52,018 nt of DNA from Prevotella sp. (GTDB taxonomy: Bacteria > Bacteroidota > Bacteroidia > Bacteroidales > Bacteroidaceae), in assembly GCA_017478025.1 (NCBI GenBank), contig JAFVGZ010000005.1, positions 1-52,018 on the forward strand, given 5' to 3'. The first letter of the stretch is position 1. Each line of letters opens with the position of its first letter. The notes under the pieces are model-generated. The model searched no databases. It saw only the letters and a list, made by a program, of their open reading frames with translations, and was not told where the DNA came from. Positions 9,967 through 51,800 of the stretch are shown piece after piece. A program made the translations under genes and the position numbers.

Positions 9967-10413
9967 CTATCGCTTTGCCTGAAAGAACTCTTTCATTATG
10001 TCGGCACATTCCTCTTCCATCACGCCACTGACCACCTGTGTCTTAGGATGAAGAACCTTAGGGGCTACCAATCGGTAGCCTTTTTTTGTGTCCGGTGCTC
10101 CATAGACTATACGCCCTATCTGGCTCCACGCCAATGCTCCGGCACACATGGGGCACGGCTCCACGGTGACATAAATGGTACAGTCGTTGAGGTATTTGCC
10201 ACCCAACGCATTGGCAGCAGCCGTTATTGCCTGCATCTCTGCATGGGCCGTGACATCGTGAAGCGTCTCCGTGAGGTTGTGAGTGCGAGCTATGATGCGG
10301 TTATTGCACACCACGACGGCACCAATGGGCACCTCGTCCTCTGCGGCAGCCTGCTCTGCTTCAGCAAGCGCCTTGCGCATATAGTCAGTATCCTGTGATG
10401 TACAATTTACCAT
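9967..10413 (-). CDS. tadA: tRNA-specific adenosine deaminase
   Basis: A 148-residue TadA, which deaminates adenosine 34 of tRNA-Arg(ACG) to inosine. Zinc-site motifs are intact: HAEMQAI (catalytic Glu) and PCPMCAGAL (two Cys). PIGAVVV and the C-terminal FFQAKR are also typical. The start ATG at 10413 falls in the first unit of a 21-bp tandem repeat. The first residues (MVNCTS) are therefore repeat-derived, and family homology begins at about QDTDYMRKAL. An internal Met at residue 12 is an alternative start. Confidence 0.93.
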   Translation of the reverse strand: MVNCTSQDTDYMRKALAEAEQAAAEDEVPIGAVVVCNNRIIARTHNLTETLHDVTAHAEMQAITAAANALGGKYLNDCTIYVTVEPCPMCAGALAWSQIGRIVYGAPDTKKGYRLVAPKVLHPKTQVVSGVMEEECADIMKEFFQAKR

Positions 10414-10473
10414 TTACAATGTACAATTTACCATTTACAATGTACAATTTACCATTTACAATGTACAATTTAA
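10411..10473. repeat. 21-bp tandem repeat, three copies, over the tadA start
   Basis: The unit CATTTACAATGTACAATTTA plus C repeats at 10411, 10432 and 10453. On the minus strand each unit carries an ATG, and each upstream one opens a six-codon frame (MVNCTL, stop) whose TAA directly abuts the next ATG. The words are shared with the 47-bp pair at 431-520. Confidence 0.85.
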
Positions 10474-10488
10474 GTCCGAGCCCTCAAT

Positions 10489-10588
10489 CCTCACCGAACC
10501 AGCTAAAATTGAGAATTATAATTACCAGAGAGCCTCACCGCATCAGCTAAAATTGAGAATTATAATTACCAGAGAGCCTCACCGCATC
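10489..10588. repeat. 44-bp tandem repeat, two copies plus a partial
   Basis: Units at 10501-10544 and 10545-10588 are identical (AGCTAAAATTGAGAATTATA, then ATTACCAGAGAGCCTCACCG, then CATC). CCTCACCGAACC at 10489-10500 looks like the end of a third. They lie between pssA and tadA. Confidence 0.85.
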
Positions 10589-10623
10589 AGCGAATTCTGA
10601 ATTTTGAATTATTAATTATTAAT

Positions 10624-17860: not shown

Positions 17861-18476
17861 GAGAAACGGAAAGAAATTATATAATGTTTTTTGACAGAAA
17901 TTATTATTATTAAAAGACTCCGCGAAGCGCCTGAGCACCTACTGGAGCGCAAGAATTAGCCCATGCGGAACGGCCACCATAACGAGAGTGTTCAACGGTT
18001 TTCCCGTTGAATAACCGCCACCACATCATGCCCGCCGCCCCATCATTACCGCCACCATTCATGCATACAGATGAGGCGAGAATGTTGCATAAGTCCTATG
18101 AAAAAAGGCGCATCAACTCACCATGAAAAAACCTCTAAAAAATCGCGAAACCACCTTCAGACGACCCAAAACACCCCCGAACGATGTCTTCGAGTAACTT
18201 TTAGGAGGTTAAAGTTACTCCGGAACACCCTGAAAGTTACTCCGGAACACCCTAAAAACTACTCCCGGATAGGCCCAAAAATCACCTATCCTACGTCTTT
18301 TCTTTTCTATTCCTCCTCCTTAAAAAGCCGCATTTTAACACCCCAAACGCTAACATCCACTATAACAGCAAGTTAGGCAAAACGTCAATTTTAGCGTTTA
18401 TACGCGAGCTGCAGATTTTTCGTGGAAAATATGCGACTGTAGAGCACGAATAATTATGCACGATGTTGGAAATGTC
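17861..18476. other. Intergenic region with repeats, no gene
   Basis: Contains an inverted copy of the GGTGCTCAGGCGCTTCGCGG element at 17916-17939, a hairpin at about 17993-18013 (TTCAACGG pairing with CCGTTGAA), and the 22-bp-period array at 18192-18264. CATTTTAACAC at 18331-18341 is shared with the second array locus. The 101-codon plus-strand frame at 18071-18376 spans the array and looks fortuitous. Confidence 0.6.
18192..18264. repeat. 22-bp-period heptamer array, locus 1
   Basis: An inverted heptamer GAGTAAC at 18192-18198 is followed by GTTACTC at 18214, GTTACTC at 18236 and a variant ACTACTC at 18258. All starts are exactly 22 bases apart. Two of the 15-base spacers are nearly identical (CGGAACACCCTGAAA and CGGAACACCCTAAAA). 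The layout matches the arrays near 31.2 and 51.25 kb, but with a different heptamer. Confidence 0.8.
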
Positions 18477-26161: not shown

Positions 26162-29100
26162 TTAATAGTCTCGCTGTATGTCTGCTATCTTGTCCTGCAG
26201 TTTCTTGAATTGCTCCTCATGCAGCACTCGTTTATACTCTATCGGCACTACCTGGATAAACTCCTCCACATAGCGATGCCAGTCATCAAGCATGGTGCGG
26301 GCCAGCTTTGAGCCTGTATATAGGTAGTGTTGCCTTATCAGTTCATGCAGTTCCTTACGATACTGCGTCTCCTCCACCAGGTTGATCTCCACCATATCCA
26401 TGTTGCAGTAGTAGTCAAAATTGTGGTTCTTGTCCCACACGTATGCCACACCGCCGCTCATGCCGGCAGCGAAATTGCGTCCTGTCTCACCCAGCACTAC
26501 CACACGGCCACCTGTCATGTACTCACAGCAATGGTCACCTGCGCCCTCTATCACGGCGATGGCACCTGAGTTTCTGACGCCGAAGCGCTCACCTACCCTG
26601 CCGTTCACGTACAGTTCACCGCTTGTCGCACCATAGAGACCGGTGTTTCCGGCTATGATATTGTCCTCTGCGCTGAAGTTGCTACGCACCGGAGGCAGGA
26701 TGGCAATGCGGCCACCGGAGAGGCCTTTGGCAAAGTAGTCATTGCATTCACCCTCGAGTTTGAAGCTCACGCCACGCATGAGGAACGCTCCGAAGGACTG
26801 TCCGGCAGAACCTTTGAACTTCACCTGCACGGTATCGTCAGCCAATCCCGCACCGCCATAGCGCTTGGCAATAGCTCCTGAGAGCATGGTGCCGGCAGCG
26901 CGGTCGGTATTCTTGATGGTATAGTCGAGGTTCACCTCCGTTCCTTTCTCTATAGCAGGCTGTGCCGCCTTTATCATCTGCATGTCAAGGATGCCGCTGA
27001 AGTCACGCTCCGCATCACATTCATGGCGCAGTACACCCTTCTCTTTATATAACAGACGTGAGAAATCATACTGGGTGAGGGATGAGGGATGAGAGGCAAG
27101 AGTGGGGCTTATCAGCTCCGTGTGTCCTATGATGTCATTCAGGGAGCGGTATCCCATCTGTGCCAGATACTCCCTTACCTCCTCAGCGAGGAAGGTGAAG
27201 TAGTTCACCAAATGATCCACCTTACCGAGGAAATGCTTGCGCAGCTCAGCGTTCTGCGTCGCTACGCCCATAGGACAGGTGTTCTGATTACACTTTCGCA
27301 TCATCACGCATCCTAGTACGATGAGCGCCGTAGTGCCGAAACCGAACTCGTCTGCACCCAGCAAAGCCATCAGTATAATGTCGCGACCGGTCTTCAACTG
27401 TCCGTCAACCTGCAGTCTTACCTGTCCGCGCAGGCCGTTCTTCACAAGCGTCTGCTGAGTCTCAGACAGACCTATCTCAGGCGATATGCCTGCAAAGCGC
27501 ATTGACGAGGCAGGCGAAGCACCCGTTCCGCCCTCGGCACCGCTGATGACGATGAGGTCGGCCTTAGCCTTTGCCACACCCGCAGCGATGGTGCCCACGC
27601 CGCTCTCAGCTACGAGTTTCACGCTGATGGCAGCCGTTGGGTTCACGTTCTTCAGGTCAAAGATGAGCTGCGCCAGATCCTCGATGCTATAGATGTCATG
27701 GTGCGGCGGCGGTGAGATAAGCGAAATACCGGGTATGCTGTGGCGCGTGCGGGCTATGATCTCATTGACCTTAAAGCCCGGCAGCTGTCCTCCCTCACCA
27801 GGTTTAGCACCCTGAGCCACCTTGATTTGCAGTTCTTCAGCGTTGACAAGATATTCTGTCGTAACGCCGAAGCGTCCCGAAGCAATCTGCTTTGTCTTAC
27901 TTGACAGGCTCACGCCATCCACTTCCGCATGGAATCGCGCTGAGTCCTCACCACCTTCACCCGTGTTGCTGCGGGCTCCGAGTTTGTTCATAGCAAGGCA
28001 AAGGGTCTCATGCGCCTCCTTGGACAGCGCTCCGAACGACATAGCGCCCGTAACGAAATGCTTCACTATCTCGCTCACCGGCTCTACCTCATCAATGGGG
28101 ATAGCACGTGTGCCATCACTCTTGCCGCCCTGAGAGGGGCTGGGGGAGATACCCAACAGGTCACGAATGAACAGCGGCTCCGGCTTTTCATCTACCAGCC
28201 GTGAGAACTCCTTGAACTTCTTATAGTCACCCTTGCGGCAAGCCAACTGTAGCGTAGCGATGGTCTCAGGGTTCCAAGCGTGCTTGATGCCGTCCTTACG
28301 CCAATGGAACTGCCCCTGATTTTTGAGCACGCCATCATCGCTCACCCCTCCTTGGGAGGGGCCGGGGGAGGTTTCCCTCACTCTCGCTATGGCATCTGCC
28401 GCAATCTTCTCCAGGCCGATGCCGCCGATGGTGCTCACAGAGGTGCCGAAGTAGCTGCGTAACAGACCCTCGCTCAGGCCGATACTCTCAAATATCTTCG
28501 CCCCGCGATAGCTGCGGATGGTAGAGATACCCATCTTGGCCATTATCTTGAAGAGTCCTTTCTTTACCGCCTTAATGTAGTTTGCCTCTGCCGTTGCATA
28601 GTCCTCCTGTATCTTTCCACGCTTCACGAGGTCGTCCAGAATGGCAAAGACCATATACGGGCACAGCGCGCTGGCGCCATATCCCAGCAGCAATGCGGCG
28701 TGCATAGTCTCGCGTATCTCACCGCTCTCTACTATCAGCGCCGTCTGCACGCGCTTGCCAACGCCTATCAGATAGTGGTGCACAGCCGATACCGCCAGCA
28801 GCGAGGGGATGAAACCTCCCCCAGCCCCTCCAAAGGAGGGAAGTGACTTGCGGACTTCCTCTTCGCGGTCGGTCAGGATGATGTAGTTATAGCCGTCATC
28901 GACAGCCTTTTCCGCATCCTTGCACAGTTTGTCCAATGCAGCCCGCAGGCTCTCACCGCCCTTGGACGGATCGGTGCAGGTGAACGCAATCGGCAGTTTT
29001 ATAGTGTTAAAGCCCTTATACCTGATGTTGCACAGAATATCGAGCTGCGTGTTGTTGAGCACAGGATGTGGCAGGCGCACCATCTTGCAGTTTGTCTCAT

Positions 29101-30817
29101 CGGGGTTCAGAATGCCGTGTCCCACTCTGCCGATATACTCTGTCAGCGACATCACCAGACTCTCGCGGATGGAGTCGATGGCGGGGTTGGTGACCTGAGC
29201 AAACTGCTGACGGAAGTAGTTGAAGAACACCTGAGGCCTTGTTGACAGTACGGCCAATGGTGTGTCGTTGCCCATCGCGGCTGTTGGCTCCTGTCCCGCC
29301 ACAGCCATCGGGATGATGGTGCTGCTGATATCTTCTTCGCCGTAACCGAAGAGGCGCTCTTTCTCCAAGAGGTCTTTTATTCCGTTCTCCACATGGCGAC
29401 CGCTCTTCAGCTTCTCCAGCTCTATGCGGTTTGTCGATAACCACTGGCGGTAAGGGTGCTCCGCTGCCAGCTGCTGCTTTATCTCGCCGTCATAATATAT
29501 CCTGCCCTCCTGGGTGTCTATCAGCAGTATCTTACCAGGTTGCAGGCGGCCCTTCTCTGCCACCTCCGTGGGGTCAAAGTCCATCACGCCTACCTCACTC
29601 GCCACTACCATCGTGTCGTTCTTCGTAATGGTATAGCGGGCTGGGCGCAGGCCGTTACGGTCAAGCATGCCACCCGCAAAGCGACCGTCGCTGAACAGCA
29701 GCGCAGCAGGTCCGTCCCAAGGCTCCATCAGGATGGAGTGATACTCATAGAACGCCTTCAGGTCTTCGCTTATGGGGTTCTTGTCATTGAAGCTCTCCGG
29801 CACAAGTATCGCCATAGCATGAGGCAAAGACATACCAGACATGACAAAGAACTCCAGCACATTGTCCAGAGAAGCCGAGTCGCTCATGCCCTCCTGCACA
29901 ATGGGTGCGATGTCTGTACCCAAGGCTCCAATCGCCTTTGAAGATGGGTCGGGGGAGGTTAGCAGCACGCTCTCCCTCGCCTTCATCCATCCGCGGTTGC
30001 CACGAATGGTGTTGATCTCGCCGTTATGCGCAAGCAGGCGGAAGGGCTGAGCAAGTGCCCATGTGGGGAACGTGTTGGTGCTGAAGCGAGAATGCACCAG
30101 CGCCAGACCGCTCGTGAAGTAAGGGTTAGACAGGTCAAGGAAGTACTCCCTCACCTGCATAGATGACAGCATGCCTTTATATACGATACTCGTGTTGCTC
30201 AGCGAGCAGATATAGAAGTCCTCCAAGCCCTTTCTTCTCTCATCTCCCTGGGAGGCGCTGGGGGAGGTTTGCATCTTCATCTGCTCCACACGCCGCTCTA
30301 TCCTCTTCCTTATTATATACAAGGTTCGCTGCAGCGCTATCTCCCCTTCTTGGGAGTGGCTGGAGGAGGTTGCACCTGTGATGAAGACCTGCTTGACGTC
30401 TGGCTCCGTGCTCAGCGCACGCTCACCCAGGCAGGCGGGGTTCGTGGGAACCGTGCGAAGATGAGACAACTGAAGCCCTTCACGCTCCACCTCCTCTATC
30501 ATCACGCTCAGTATCTCCTGCTGCAGCTTCTCATCCTTAGGCAAGAAGACCAGGCCAGTACCATACAGACCCTTCTCCGGCACAGGAATGCCTTGCAGCA
30601 ATATAAACTCATGCGGTATCTGGAGCATGATACCGGCTCCATCGCCGTCCTTACCTATCTCCGCACCGCGGTGACGCATATTCTCAAGCACCTTCAGCGC
30701 ATCGTCCACCAATTGGTGACTCTTTCCGCCGTGGATATTCACTACCATACCCACGCCGCAAGCATCGTGCTCGTATTCACTCTGATACAGCCCTAGCTGT
30801 TGTTCACACTTTGTCAT
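26162..30817 (-). CDS. gltB: Glutamate synthase large subunit, with several repeat-derived inserts
   Basis: A 1551-residue GOGAT alpha subunit making two glutamates from glutamine and 2-oxoglutarate. The N-terminal nucleophile Cys is in HDACGVGMV (residue 20, after a propeptide). The FMN/2-oxoglutarate domain has GEGGQLPGFKV and SGAEGGTGASP; [3Fe-4S] cysteines are in CVMMRKCNQNTCPMG. A GXGXG beta-helix forms the C terminus. At least six in-frame inserts of the type TSPGPSQGG sit in linkers, near residues 138, 183, 287, 658, 818 and 893; relatives I remember lack them and are about 1510 residues. First gene of the gltB-gltD-pyrG-asnB-purF row. Confidence 0.96.
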   Translation of the reverse strand: MTKCEQQLGLYQSEYEHDACGVGMVVNIHGGKSHQLVDDALKVLENMRHRGAEIGKDGDGAGIMLQIPHEFILLQGIPVPEKGLYGTGLVFLPKDEKLQQEILSVMIEEVEREGLQLSHLRTVPTNPACLGERALSTEPDVKQVFITGATSSSHSQEGEIALQRTLYIIRKRIERRVEQMKMQTSPSASQGDERRKGLEDFYICSLSNTSIVYKGMLSSMQVREYFLDLSNPYFTSGLALVHSRFSTNTFPTWALAQPFRLLAHNGEINTIRGNRGWMKARESVLLTSPDPSSKAIGALGTDIAPIVQEGMSDSASLDNVLEFFVMSGMSLPHAMAILVPESFNDKNPISEDLKAFYEYHSILMEPWDGPAALLFSDGRFAGGMLDRNGLRPARYTITKNDTMVVASEVGVMDFDPTEVAEKGRLQPGKILLIDTQEGRIYYDGEIKQQLAAEHPYRQWLSTNRIELEKLKSGRHVENGIKDLLEKERLFGYGEEDISSTIIPMAVAGQEPTAAMGNDTPLAVLSTRPQVFFNYFRQQFAQVTNPAIDSIRESLVMSLTEYIGRVGHGILNPDETNCKMVRLPHPVLNNTQLDILCNIRYKGFNTIKLPIAFTCTDPSKGGESLRAALDKLCKDAEKAVDDGYNYIILTDREEEVRKSLPSFGGAGGGFIPSLLAVSAVHHYLIGVGKRVQTALIVESGEIRETMHAALLLGYGASALCPYMVFAILDDLVKRGKIQEDYATAEANYIKAVKKGLFKIMAKMGISTIRSYRGAKIFESIGLSEGLLRSYFGTSVSTIGGIGLEKIAADAIARVRETSPGPSQGGVSDDGVLKNQGQFHWRKDGIKHAWNPETIATLQLACRKGDYKKFKEFSRLVDEKPEPLFIRDLLGISPSPSQGGKSDGTRAIPIDEVEPVSEIVKHFVTGAMSFGALSKEAHETLCLAMNKLGARSNTGEGGEDSARFHAEVDGVSLSSKTKQIASGRFGVTTEYLVNAEELQIKVAQGAKPGEGGQLPGFKVNEIIARTRHSIPGISLISPPPHHDIYSIEDLAQLIFDLKNVNPTAAISVKLVAESGVGTIAAGVAKAKADLIVISGAEGGTGASPASSMRFAGISPEIGLSETQQTLVKNGLRGQVRLQVDGQLKTGRDIILMALLGADEFGFGTTALIVLGCVMMRKCNQNTCPMGVATQNAELRKHFLGKVDHLVNYFTFLAEEVREYLAQMGYRSLNDIIGHTELISPTLASHPSSLTQYDFSRLLYKEKGVLRHECDAERDFSGILDMQMIKAAQPAIEKGTEVNLDYTIKNTDRAAGTMLSGAIAKRYGGAGLADDTVQVKFKGSAGQSFGAFLMRGVSFKLEGECNDYFAKGLSGGRIAILPPVRSNFSAEDNIIAGNTGLYGATSGELYVNGRVGERFGVRNSGAIAVIEGAGDHCCEYMTGGRVVVLGETGRNFAAGMSGGVAYVWDKNHNFDYYCNMDMVEINLVEETQYRKELHELIRQHYLYTGSKLARTMLDDWHRYVEEFIQVVPIEYKRVLHEEQFKKLQDKIADIQRDY
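27077..27108 (-). repeat. In-frame insert of a second repeat type in gltB
   Basis: Minus strand reads CTCTTGCCTCTCATCCCTCA then TCCCTCAC, encoding TLASHPSSLTQ. The same CTCTTCCCTCATCCCTCATC words are intergenic at 22938-22970 and 24690-24740, between asnB, pyrG and gltD. Confidence 0.55.
28120..28150 (-). repeat. Palindromic element inside gltB (copy 1)
   Basis: Minus strand: TATCTCCCCCAGCCCCTCTC then AGGGCGGCAAGAG, encoding ISPSPSQGGKS just after IRDLLG. It has the same frame as the other forward copies. Confidence 0.75.
28340..28373 (-). repeat. Palindromic element inside gltB (copy 2)
   Basis: Minus strand: AACCTCCCCCGGCCCCTCCC then AAGGAGGGGTGAGC, encoding TSPGPSQGGVS between RVRE and DDGVLKNQGQ. 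Closest copy to the family consensus. Confidence 0.8.
28813..28847 (+). repeat. Palindromic element inside gltB, inverted (copy 3)
   Basis: Here the plus strand carries AACCTCCCCCAGCCCCTCCA then AAGGAGGGAAGTGAC, so the gene reads its complement as SLPSFGGAGGGF between EEEVRK and IPSLLAVSAVHH. It stays in frame despite the opposite orientation. Confidence 0.8.
29933..29960 (-). repeat. Palindromic element inside gltB, eroded (copy 4)
   Basis: Minus strand: AACCTCCCCCGACCCATCTT then CAAAGGCG, encoding TSPDPSSKA after ESVLL. The second arm is degraded. Confidence 0.65.
30237..30269 (-). repeat. Palindromic element inside gltB (copy 5)
   Basis: Minus strand: AACCTCCCCCAGCGCCTCCC then AGGGAGATGAGAG, encoding TSPSASQGDER between VEQMKMQ and KGLEDFYICS. 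Confidence 0.75.
30337..30371 (-). repeat. Palindromic element inside gltB (copy 6)
   Basis: Minus strand: AACCTCCTCCAGCCACTCCC then AAGAAGGGGAGATAG, encoding TSSSHSQEGEI between VFITGA and ALQRTLYIIRKR. Sixty-seven bases separate it from copy 5. Confidence 0.75.
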
Positions 30818-31072
30818 AATTTCCTTTCTTAAACACTCAATTTGGCTGCAAAATTACCATGTTTTGCGCAATTATGTCACATTTCAGGCATATTTTCTTT
30901 CTTTTACGGAGCCTAAAGTTACAATCTATAACACTATAATACTAATAACAATACATACAGTTACAGGTTTGCACACATTTTCTTTCATTTCGTAATTTAC
31001 CATATAAAACAACGATTTCCCTCTACCTTTTTGCCAGTTTCTATACCTTATTACAATAGTACCCCTTAACCT
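30818..31072 (-). promoter_or_regulatory. Upstream region of the gltB row
   Basis: The minus strand has TAATTTTG (complement of 30849-30856) about 30 bases before the gltB start; a matching -33 TTTG is not at the ideal distance. Further upstream the DNA is AT-rich, without genes or recognisable sites. No sigma-54 or NtrC-like sequence was recognised. Confidence 0.5.
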
Positions 31073-31599
31073 GAAATGTTAAATCAAGTGTTAAAATCGG
31101 GCTTATAATTTTTGCGATTTTCCCCATCAGAAAATGAATTCTAGAAGCGCGAACCTACCTTTCTAATGACGCTGACCTACTTTTCTCGGAGTAAAGTAGG
31201 TCAACTCCGGTGCTAAAGTAGGTCTTTTACCTCCTAATAGTAGGTCTTTTACAAGGTAATAGCAGGTCTTTCATAAGGTAAAAGACCTACTATTACACCA
31301 TAAAATTGTCCGTTTCTGGCAGATAATTATCCGATTTTCAATCGCCAAACCGCCATCCTCCCACCAAACTTCCAACTTCCCATCCCCGCAAAACGAGCTG
31401 CAATCCGTCCAACATCCTTATAATCAGCCCATTCCAAGCATACCGTCATTTCCTCTCCCGAAATCAATCTCAAACGTCAAAAATATCGCAAATTTCGCAT
31501 CGAAGGCAATTTCGTTTTCAAATTTTCAACGAGAGAGGACGAATCCGAAACCCTTCGTTTGCCATTTTAACACTTTTCGGGGTCTGATTTTAACATTTC
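31073..31599. mobile_element. Putative 527-bp element with terminal inverted repeats around the second array
   Basis: The left end has GAAATGTT at 31073 and GTGTTAAAAT at 31088-31097. The right end has the complements, ATTTTAACAC at 31564-31573 and AACATTTC at 31592-31599, in mirror order. It encloses the heptamer array and no ORF of note. CATTTTAACAC is also present to the right of locus 1. Nothing here codes for a transposase, so if mobile it would be non-autonomous. Confidence 0.4.
31152..31290. repeat. 22-bp-period heptamer array, locus 2 (seven sites)
   Basis: Heptamers start at 31152 (AACCTAC), 31174 (GACCTAC), 31196, 31218 and 31240 (GTAGGTC), 31262 (GCAGGTC) and 31284 (GACCTAC): seven sites, each exactly 22 bases after the last. 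The first two and the last are inverted relative to the middle four. Flanks are partly conserved (TTTTAC after, TAATA or TAAA before). Confidence 0.88.
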
Positions 31600-31704
31600 A
31601 TTTGAGGCCGCAAGGCCTATAGGACGCTACCTCACCTTCGGTTCTGCGCCTTGAATGTGGCTTCTGTATGTCAGGTCAGACATAGCTCTTGCCGAGTGTA
31701 CCAA

Positions 31705-31740
31705 CTAAAAAGGGATGTGCCGATTTGACACATCCCCTTT
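31705..31740 (-). terminator. Terminator of the glnN transcript
   Basis: On the minus strand GGGATGTGTC pairs with GGCACATCCC around an AAATC centre, followed by TTTTTAG. It starts a few bases after the glnN stop. Confidence 0.8.
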
Positions 31741-31747
31741 CCCTGGT

Positions 31748-33970
31748 TTATCTGATAAATAACAGTTCTCGATACTTTGGCAGCGGCCAGCAGGCGTTAT
31801 CCACGATGAGCTCAAGCTTATCTATCTGGTAACGGATGCTCTCCAGCTTCGGAGCTACGGTATCGTGATATGCGATAGCCTTCTCGTGCTCGCTCTCAAT
31901 CTTGTTCGCCACCTTGCGCGCGTTGACGAGTTCGTCCACCTGAGTTTCTATAGATGCGCTGCGCTCAGCTATCTCCTCAATGATTTTTATGTTGCGCGCT
32001 GAGAGCTTCTCTACTTTTTCCTTCGGGAATACCTCGCACATGTCGCTCACATTCTGCAGCAGCTGGCTCTGGTAGCGTGTCGCAACCGGAATGATATGGT
32101 TCATCGACAGGTCACCCAGCACGCGTGCCTCAATCTGTATCTTCTTCGTGTAGGTCTCCCACTTCACCTCGTTGCGGGCCTCCAGTTCCTTGCGCGACAT
32201 CACTCCGAGCGATTCAAACATCTGCACGCTGGCCTCATCAAGATAGCGCTCGAAGATCTTCGGGCATGACTTCTCAACGTCCAGCCCGCGTTTTTCAGCC
32301 TCTATCACCCACTCGTCGCTATATCCGTTGCCGTTGAAGCGGATGGGCTTAGACTCCTTGATGTCATCACGCAGGATGTCGATAATGGCGTGGAACGTTG
32401 CTGTGTGCCCTGTACCCTCGGCATACTGTGGGTCATCCTTTATCTCTTCGATGCGCGCGTCAACACGTTTTTTGAAGTTTACGAGCGCTTCAGCCACGGC
32501 TGCATTGAGTGCTATCATTGCCGATGCGCAGTTCGCCTCGCTGCCTACGGCACGGAACTCGAAGCGGTTTCCGGTGAAAGCGAATGGGCTTGTGCGGTTA
32601 CGGTCAGTCTGGTCAATGAGAAGTTCAGGTATCTCAGGGATGTCCATCTTCAGTCCTTGCTTGCCTGCGATAGACAGCTGATCGGGATCAGCGTTCTCTA
32701 TGTGGTCCAACAGGTTGCTCACCTGCGTGCCGAGGAATGAGCTGACAATTGCCGGAGGAGCCTCGTTGGCGCCCAGACGGTGGGCGTTCGTCGCACTCAT
32801 TATTGATGCCTTCAGCAGTCCGTTGTGCTTATAGACGCCCATCAGGGTCTCGACGATGAACACGGCGAAGCGCAGATTCTCTTCCGGTGTCTTGCCCGGA
32901 GCATGGAGCAGTACGCCCGTGTCGGTGCTCAGCGACCAGTTGTTATGCTTTCCGCTGCCGTTGATTCCGGCGAAAGGCTTCTCATGGAGCAGTACGCGGA
33001 AGCCATGTTTGCGTGCCACTTTCTTCATCAGCGACATCAGCAGCATGTTGTGATCCACCGCCAGGTTGGTCTCTTCGAAGATTGGAGCCAGCTCAAACTG
33101 GTTCGGCGCCACCTCGTTGTGACGCGTCTTGCATGGAATGCCAAGCTCCAAAGCCTGTATCTCCAGGTCTTTCATGAATGCCTGTACCCTGTCAGGGATT
33201 GTGCCGAAGTAGTGATCGTCCATCTGCTGGTTCTTGGCAGAGTCGTGTCCCATGAGCGTGCGACCTGTCAAAAGCAAGTCTGGGCGCGCTGAATACAGGC
33301 CCTCGTCAACGAGGAAATACTCCTGTTCCCATCCCAGATTGCTCGTAACCTTCTTTACCTCTGGGTCAAAATAGCGGCACACGTCAGTTGCTGCCACATT
33401 GACGGCATGCAATGCGCGGAGCAATGGTGCCTTATAATCCAATGCCTCACCGCTATATGAGATAAAGACGGTAGGGATGCAGAGCGTGTCGTCGATGATG
33501 AATACAGGCGATGTAGGGTCCCAGGCGGAGTATCCGCGAGCCTCAAACGTTGAGCGAATACCGCCGGAGGGGAACGATGAAGCGTCAGGCTCCTGCTGAA
33601 CAAGCAGCTTGCCGCTGAACTCTTCTACCATTCCGCCTTTGCCGTCATGCTCTATGAATGAGTCATGCTTCTCGGCCGTACCCTCTGTCAGGGGCTGGAA
33701 CCAGTGGGTGTAGTGCGTCACTCCCTGCTCCGTTGCCCACTGCTTCATGCCGGCAGCAACAGCATCAGCCACCTTGCGGTCAAGACGAGCACCGTTCTCC
33801 ATAACGTCAATCATCTTCTCATATACGTCCTTAGGAAGGTACTTGTACATCTTCTCGCGATTGAACACTTTCTTGGCGAAGTAATCGCATGGTCTTTCTG
33901 ATGGTCTCTCTACCTCGAGAGGCTTCTTTTTGAATGCCTCTCCTACAACCTGAAATCTTAAGTTCTCCAT
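31748..33970 (-). CDS. glnN: Glutamine synthetase type III
   Basis: A 740-residue GSIII (ammonium + glutamate + ATP to glutamine), about 1.5 times the length of GSI. Recognised by FQVVGEAFKKKPLEVERP at the start, GGMVEEFSGKLLVQQEPDAS, the metal and ATP site NEVAPNQFELAPIFEETN near residue 285, and KPFAGINGSGKHNNWS near 330. The type III C-terminal extension ends in WPLPKYRELLF. It follows dapL by 48 bases on the same strand, facing the PII-amtB row beyond dapF. Confidence 0.97.
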   Translation of the reverse strand: MENLRFQVVGEAFKKKPLEVERPSERPCDYFAKKVFNREKMYKYLPKDVYEKMIDVMENGARLDRKVADAVAAGMKQWATEQGVTHYTHWFQPLTEGTAEKHDSFIEHDGKGGMVEEFSGKLLVQQEPDASSFPSGGIRSTFEARGYSAWDPTSPVFIIDDTLCIPTVFISYSGEALDYKAPLLRALHAVNVAATDVCRYFDPEVKKVTSNLGWEQEYFLVDEGLYSARPDLLLTGRTLMGHDSAKNQQMDDHYFGTIPDRVQAFMKDLEIQALELGIPCKTRHNEVAPNQFELAPIFEETNLAVDHNMLLMSLMKKVARKHGFRVLLHEKPFAGINGSGKHNNWSLSTDTGVLLHAPGKTPEENLRFAVFIVETLMGVYKHNGLLKASIMSATNAHRLGANEAPPAIVSSFLGTQVSNLLDHIENADPDQLSIAGKQGLKMDIPEIPELLIDQTDRNRTSPFAFTGNRFEFRAVGSEANCASAMIALNAAVAEALVNFKKRVDARIEEIKDDPQYAEGTGHTATFHAIIDILRDDIKESKPIRFNGNGYSDEWVIEAEKRGLDVEKSCPKIFERYLDEASVQMFESLGVMSRKELEARNEVKWETYTKKIQIEARVLGDLSMNHIIPVATRYQSQLLQNVSDMCEVFPKEKVEKLSARNIKIIEEIAERSASIETQVDELVNARKVANKIESEHEKAIAYHDTVAPKLESIRYQIDKLELIVDNACWPLPKYRELLFIR

Positions 33971-50909: not shown

Positions 50910-51227
50910 AAACAATGTGGGCATTGTATAAATATGGGACGAAGGCGGCGGTTTGCAAAAATTTCGCCTGCATTTCGCTACTTTTATCAACGAAACGCGA
51001 CATATTTCAAAAAAAATATGTACCTTTGTCACCGTAAAAATGTCCGGCACAATTGAAAAAGTCCAAAAAGACAAATCGTCCAATTTTTGGCGATTTTTTT
51101 GACATTTGTGTTTTTGAAAATGTCGGGCAAAAAATGAAATCTAGAGAGCCGCGAGGCGAAAAATAGTGCATTATTCACAGTTTTTAATGCATTTTTTGAA
51201 GGCGGGAAGAGGATTTTGGGGGTAAAA

Positions 51228-51300
51228 GCAGGTCTATTAGGGTGTCCGCGATGGTGCAGAAGGACCTAATAGCAGGTCTATTAGGGGGTAATAGTAGGTC
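51228..51300. repeat. 22-bp-period heptamer array, locus 3
   Basis: GCAGGTC at 51228 and 51272 and GTAGGTC at 51294 are in 22-base register. The expected site at 51250 (GATGGTG) is degenerate, and an out-of-register inverted GACCTAA lies at 51263. Flanks TATTAGGG and TTTTACCC resemble those of locus 2. Confidence 0.75.
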
Positions 51301-51800
51301 TTTTACCCTGATTTTCGTGTGCGTTTTTTCGGTTTTGTTGTTCTGTTTTGATGGGCAAACCATCAAACACTCTGTTATTCAGCGCGTTAGCTATTCGTGC
51401 TCTCTCGTGCGATATTTGCGAGCGAGGGCAACCTTGGTCCAAAATATCGCGATTTTTTGAAGGGTCGAAAAATCACTTTTGACTAAAAAAAGGGCAAAAA
51501 ATGAGCAAAATGTAAAATCGGCATAGAACAACATGAATGAACATCTTTTGCCCTTACAGGGCGCAACTACACCACCACATGAAAACCCAGGGCGCTGCCC
51601 TGGGCTATATGCTTTTGCCCTTTCAGGGCGCGTACACTGTTTTTTCTTTTACGGAGCTCAGGCAGACAATAAATCTGAGCAGGGCAAATCACCACCTAAA
51701 TTGATGTTGAATCGCCGTTTATGAAAGATGTCCGTTTGTTCGGCATTCTATACTTTTTCATACTATTTCCACTTTTAGTGACAAGTTTCCGCACATTTTC

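Follow-up and report, generated by a model that had tools for sequence, protein, structure and literature searches.

A family of heptamer arrays in a strict 22-bp register, apparently carried within MITE-like intergenic elements, in two Prevotellaceae genomes

Between the genes for glutamate synthase and type III glutamine synthetase of a Prevotella sp. (assembly GCA_017478025.1), a 7-bp motif recurs at a fixed step in both orientations, which raises the question of what such an array is and what keeps its spacing. The window analysed here is the whole of a 52,018-nucleotide stretch (contig JAFVGZ010000005.1), to which the coordinates below refer. The focal features are as follows.

26162-30817, minus strand: glutamate synthase ORF (Pfam), its 5' end facing the focal element
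31074-31598, no strand assigned: MITE-like element of family E, 525 bp, which holds the focal array (four-copy alignment, inverted ends, same-place copy in Prevotellaceae bacterium UBA2718, hereafter G186)
31074-31150, plus strand: left end of the element, 66/76 (31075-31150) identical to the ortholog and common to three paralogs
31152-31158, minus strand: heptamer 1, AACCTAC, with a variant end base
31174-31180, minus strand: heptamer 2, GACCTAC
31196-31202, plus strand: heptamer 3, GTAGGTC
31218-31224, plus strand: heptamer 4, GTAGGTC
31240-31246, plus strand: heptamer 5, GTAGGTC
31262-31268, plus strand: heptamer 6, GCAGGTC
31284-31290, minus strand: heptamer 7, GACCTAC
31527-31598, minus strand: right end, facing the opposite way to the left one (inverted repeats), 70/72 identical to the ortholog
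31748-33970, minus strand: type III glutamine synthetase ORF (Pfam), its 3' end facing the focal element

The seven heptamers are set at six steps of exactly 22 bp and span 139 bp in all (31152-31290), in the orientations <<>>>>< (two reverse, four forward, one reverse), as the preliminary description of this DNA had stated. The flanks TTTTAC and TAATA, which it had described as kept in the spacers, are both retained in two of the six and not in the other four. The comparison with shuffled DNA that it had proposed came out in its favour: three-copy 7-mer registers were found at 12 places in the real window, several simple repeats among them, and at none in one Markov-2 shuffle. Together with the further shuffles and the congener samples given below, this rules out chance or low complexity as the source of the registers. 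Elsewhere in the window, at 10397-10600, a tandem repeat with a unit of 21 bp (ATGTACAATTTACCATTTACA) gives way to a 44-bp repeat that contains CCTCACC.

The window's genome (2.93 Mb in 43 contigs, 84.7% complete) contains 50 exact matches to GTAGGTC-N15-GTAGGTC, neighbours within one array being counted apart, against none for the reversed control, and 34 inverted pairs of the form GNAGGTC-N15-GACCTNC against one in the control. The G[T/C]AGGTC set amounts to 48 places, including L091 and L092, which are near-identical contig copies; L092 was omitted from the unit profile, end alignments and neighbour-Pfam survey and dropped as a duplicate in the covariation test, and was retained in the 78-place tally and in the ORF-position, orientation, flank-match and end-query counts. 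A profile of 186 units from this genome reads TAATA-G[T/C]AGGTC-TTTTA plus five variable linker bases; units were admitted on a heptamer with no more than one mismatch, a choice that favours the heptamer. Heptamer bases G1, G4, G5 and T6 are invariant in 186/186, and each of linker positions 2-4 has an information content of about 0.2 bit.

A second heptamer obeys the same register. GTTACTC-N15-GTTACTC has 45 matches in the window's genome and 15 in G186; among 20 other congeners there is one match in one genome and none in 19, and the reversed control gave none in the window's genome or G186 and one each in two congeners. The spacers of GTTACTC arrays vary widely while the step stays 22; this pattern itself demanded 22, and a separate analysis free of that demand agrees, though it counted overlapping loci twice. 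A third heptamer, GTAGGC[C/T], is found in arrays together with the others, and arrays of mixed composition are common. Across the window and 68 further stretches, mostly chosen for arrays, we tallied 78 array places (L091/L092 counted twice; at least two GTTACTC places fall outside the tally): 35 with G[T/C]AGGTC only, 18 with GTTACTC/T only, 18 with both and 7 including GTAGGC[C/T], all three heptamers coming together at one place. Both orientations occur at 50 of the 78 places and a single orientation at 28. Arrays mostly have three to seven heptamer sites, and the end copy is often inverted. The longest array of the register seen, L192:9610 in G186, consists of about 9-10 near-identical 22-bp units (GTAAGTAACTTCCCTGTTGGAT). 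Beside GTTACTC arrays at L254:1306 (G186) and L261:1318 (G000) there are ACGGAAA repeats and TTACCAAGCCTTGGTAA palindromes at 22 bp, and an upstream region common to L086, L087 and L116 has GTGTA at ~11-bp steps.

The stringency of the register was measured in an array-blind sample of G186 (439,758 bases, the first 40 contigs at up to 20 kb each). Here 322 heptamers of the superfamily, the list of which was itself drawn from the window's genome and G186, gave 71 neighbour distances of at most 66 bp: 62 were 22, three were 44, and there was one each of 20, 28, 53, 55, 64 and 66, with no 21 or 23 among the 71. Twenty Markov-3 shuffled sets together yielded two distances of 22 against the 62 real ones, and samples of eight other congeners (695 kb) yielded none among superfamily heptamers. 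Relatives were also searched for different 7-mers in such a register, as the preliminary description had suggested; this covered 20-kb stretches of eight congeners and returned a few one-off registers of 20-23 bp. Genus-wide arrays with species-specific heptamers were rejected when the two one-off registers taken to whole-genome search, AACATAGT in G010 and ACACGGCT in G020, proved to be single-copy.

The distribution of the arrays is correspondingly narrow. A search for the boxed G[T/C]AGGTC pair across the genomes of 84,980 species, a set possibly without the window's own genome, returned 24 stretches, all from G186. Among 398 congeneric genomes the boxed pair occurs in two, the window's and G186, and GTTACTC pairs occur in the same two, with single control matches in four others. 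The designation of G186 as nearest relative is based on one gene: its gltB fragment shows 90% identity, against at most 80% for the best long matches of the other congeners compared. The 1.2 kb upstream of gltB in ten other congeners is free of the G[T/C]AGGTC heptamer. IMG/VR viral contigs gave no boxed G[T/C]AGGTC pairs, 23 single 17-mer matches and 8 GTTACTC-pair matches (reversed control pattern, 2). A phage link was rejected, one of these 8 lying in apparent coding sequence and seven being short tandem repeats at about 11 bp; the AAGTTACTC-like short tandem repeats (L292-L298), at ~11-bp steps, come from at least four distinct viral contig sequences. The family A element described below had no match among phages, and a plasmid search gave only ten weak short matches at E about 6. 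Literature searches within open-licence PMC papers brought up no counterpart, neither to Prevotella arrays of this kind nor to the heptamer sequences.

Alignment of the places shows the arrays to lie within larger repeated elements. Families A, B, C, E and F each align as multiple copies in unrelated flanks, as MITEs do, with inverted ends in A, B, C and E and weak ones in F. Family A is about 165 bp long with 15-bp palindromic ends (CTGCCATTTTGTCAG); family B ends in CCGAAAAATAGGACA; families C and E are about 430-530 bp long with longer inverted ends; and family F carries GTTACTC arrays, its right end being conserved in 10 aligned copies. L079 and L088 carry further copies of the focal family E element, and L097 a less similar one. 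Two other families are present in the window.

18118-18460, plus strand: portion of a family F element whose array is of GTTACTC type, the element's true ends being somewhat further out
18192, 18214 and 18236: heptamers of the family F array, GAGTAAC, GTTACTC and GTTACTC
51054-51519, plus strand: family C element, the third member in the window
51228, 51272 and 51294: heptamers of the family C array, GCAGGTC, GCAGGTC and GTAGGTC, with a degenerate slot at 51250

The best reading is that the array is an internal module of a MITE-like intergenic element, and that several families with different ends, at least the five named, carry it. As to position, 47 of the 48 G[T/C]AGGTC places have no overlap with an ORF of at least 100 aa, and 4 of 23 rows (22 places) of GTTACTC arrays overlap such ORFs, possibly spurious ones. 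Neighbouring genes flank the 48 places as minus-minus 16 times, plus-plus 13, plus-minus 10 and minus-plus 8, with one open. The 133 neighbouring ORFs of at least 120 aa, truncated to 450 aa, have matches to 166 Pfam families; among the matches listed, no family occurs in more than two. From their dispersal with defined ends we infer that the elements are mobile. Clean target-site duplications were found neither at L285/L190, where G186 has 31 bp against 671 in the window's genome and thus lacks more than the element, nor at L095/L194, where G186 is also without more than the element itself. Nearly every match to the end queries in the two genomes lay beside an array and no autonomous partner was seen, an absence that means little because the DNA searched was mostly chosen for arrays.

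The elements were also compared with their counterparts in G186. The copy at the focal locus (L151, found through gltB) also has seven heptamers at 22, and similarity to it stops at 31598. The two ends, listed above, are conserved there, the element tail is 80/175 identical, and the sequence outside is 179/255 and 37/92 identical. By linker similarity, one unit appears to have been gained or lost on each side of the focal array between the species. Ends were compared at a second locus, L089/L174, a family C pair with a left end 75/86 identical and 13/120 outside it; end conservation is weaker here because the right end is 47/63 with an 11-bp gap. When the 48 places were compared with 443 kb of G186, both flanks matched one contig at L074, L078, L089, L092, L093, L095 and L111, and addition of the focal locus, with one flank, made eight loci found through genes. 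An array is in place in G186 at five of the eight (L074, L078, L089, L111 and the focal locus) and absent at L095; at L092 there are flank pieces only, and at L093 the flanks lie some 8 kb apart. At each of the five loci G186 and the window's genome have equal numbers of heptamers, 25 in all in either genome, those of G186 all spaced 22, and a changed end base is found in 2 of the 25 G186 heptamers. At the family F place L285, the element is absent from G186. Orientation also changes: at L053/L094 the outer element is collinear and two inner units are inverted in place (>>>< vs ><<<) with the register intact, and in the pairs L069/L078 and L062/L076 conserved genes flank an inverted element, where in situ inversion and separate insertion cannot be told apart. 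At L204/L111 the two species differ less in the intergenic stretch beside the array, which is rich in ATTATGAATT/AAAATTC repeats, than in the adjoining coding DNA.

Base by base, change between the species is rarest at the invariant positions of the heptamer. In five ortholog pairs, taken from 12 listed, the invariant heptamer positions changed in 1/132 cases, the Y position in 8/22, the AT boxes in 18/241 and the linkers in 30/110, and 58-80 of 92-100 aligned bases of the 100-bp flanks are identical, i.e. 18-40% differ. A sixth collinear pair added later, L063/L074, gave 0/24, 2/4, 4/45 and 3/20 for the same four classes; the remaining six are inverted or have units not alignable one to one. 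Over the six pairs the invariant bases thus changed in 1/156 cases and the linkers in 33/130, figures that flatter the constraint and favour conserved arrays, since the pairs were found by array pattern and chosen for one-to-one units. The loci found through genes point in the same direction as the pairs found through arrays.

The reading we lean towards, at somewhat better than even confidence, is that these arrays are same-face sites for a sequence-specific DNA-binding protein, kept in place within MITE-like elements. The heptamers would be bound on one face of double-stranded DNA, one protein unit per 22 bp, and protein binding instead of RNA structure would be what is kept. That a protein array could bind one face had been proposed at the outset, and the idea fits the strict step of two helical turns, the constraint on the heptamer and the degeneracy of the Y position without covariation. 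No binding protein or transposase was found, and in these incomplete genomes neither PF01797 (window's genome) nor PF01051 (both genomes) has a match. Counting against it are the inversions in three ortholog pairs, and the fact that young arrays, L192 for one, would also retain a 22-bp step through unit duplication alone.

That last point belongs to the strongest rival, which we regard as unlikely: ordinary MITEs whose internal minisatellite gains and loses copies through slippage and serves no function. In its favour are the dispersal of the elements and their layout, a leader and a tail around the array with inverted ends, as well as the gain or loss of whole units at the focal locus and the near-identical units of some arrays (L192, L268). 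It does not explain why linkers diverge while heptamers do not, and whole-unit gene conversion would have homogenised the linkers as well. The module is moreover common to several end types, and slippage sits poorly with the sample of 440 kb of G186, where neither 21 nor 23 occurs among the neighbour distances.

It is improbable that the arrays act as RNA, whether as hairpin small RNAs, terminators or RNA-protein binding arrays. Many close with two inverted copies ('><') that make a long stem, and the focal element folds better than shuffled sequence (z -4.94 and -4.96 on the two strands), but the two strands score alike, and inverted repeats demand just that. Hairpins are further disfavoured because the variable Y/R base of inverted copies does not covary, matching in 30/55 adjacent inverted pairs of both genomes (Fisher p 0.42, in line with independence) and 14/33 of the window's genome, which favours recognition of the heptamer itself. 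The 28 places with one orientation only and the lack of a clear orientation bias to genes also tell against RNA, as does Rfam, where the 1.1-kb region 30700-31800 matched no family at gathering score and gave only four sub-threshold microRNA matches. Bacteroides FopS/RbpB small RNAs were set aside as well, those being, in the portion of the literature available, a single-stranded seed plus terminator.

Two further alternatives are very improbable. In tagged REPs, GTAG stands beside a stem. REP/BIME-like repeats mobilised by a Y1 (RAYT) transposase share with the arrays dispersal, intergenic position, both orientations and, in one heptamer, an initial GTAG, but in comparison with the available parts of their descriptions (PMC3733652, PMC2817692) the GTAG here lies inside a palindrome, the 22-bp step is strict and GTTACTC arrays lack GTAG. 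PF01797 has no match in the window's genome (84.7% complete) against matches in 5 of 14 control genomes. The long identical direct repeats of CRISPR are not seen either, only about 7 bp repeating closely and in both orientations. The preliminary description's exclusion of iterons on grounds of geometry was too strong: the plasmid iterons of RK2 and R6K have motifs of about 17-22 bp at about 22-bp steps, and the present unit, 17 bp of motif and a linker of 5 bp, is like them. That a plasmid origin was copied into the chromosome, or that the arrays are decoys titrating a plasmid initiator, is still hardly credible, since an origin would not occupy dozens of places; the arrays are scattered over the chromosome with inverted copies, PF01051 (Rep_3, the one initiator family searched) is absent from both incomplete genomes, and the searches above gave no boxed G[T/C]AGGTC pair in viral contigs and plasmid matches only at E about 6.

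The closest known kind is the BrickBuilt MITE of Porphyromonas gingivalis (PMC4596501), a single element family with, in the available part of its description, 19 copies, 23-nt tandem direct repeats of up to 22.8 copies and IS5-like ends. It resembles the elements here in being dispersed and intergenic in Bacteroidota, in having a leader and a tail around a short tandem array, with small inverted ends, and in its restriction to close relatives. The present arrays instead step by 22 bp, use three heptamer types with inverted copies, have several end types (AAATGTTAAA, CTGCCATTTTGTCAG and others), occupy more places and are conserved chiefly at the heptamer. TAACTGA repeats (MacGregor 2015, PMC4679880), abundant sets of intergenic heptamers also found in five Bacteroidetes, are likewise without a known binder; as far as the available text describes them they differ in being direct repeats, which in the main species mostly stand immediately before start codons, and the string '22 bp' is absent from its main text.

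Returning to the same-face protein array, we would guess that one protein may serve all the element families, either in mobilising them or in some task for the host, for instance organising the chromosome locally, the latter being considered because resident copies stay conserved. A bolder version, which we offer tentatively and rate well short of even, would make the arrays a genome-wide addressing system: a dedicated protein, or a GTAGGTC/GTTACTC pair of them, bound cooperatively every two turns at stations between genes, some 80 or more in number, with several unrelated MITE families captured as carriers and the chromosome of one Prevotellaceae lineage organised or insulated thereby.

A register this strict, held across very different spacers and three intermixed heptamers, is an unusually clear footprint of what may be a DNA-binding activity, and the array DNA is a ready bait for finding the putative binder. 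The arrays also present a case of small mobile elements that are seemingly held by selection instead of decaying.
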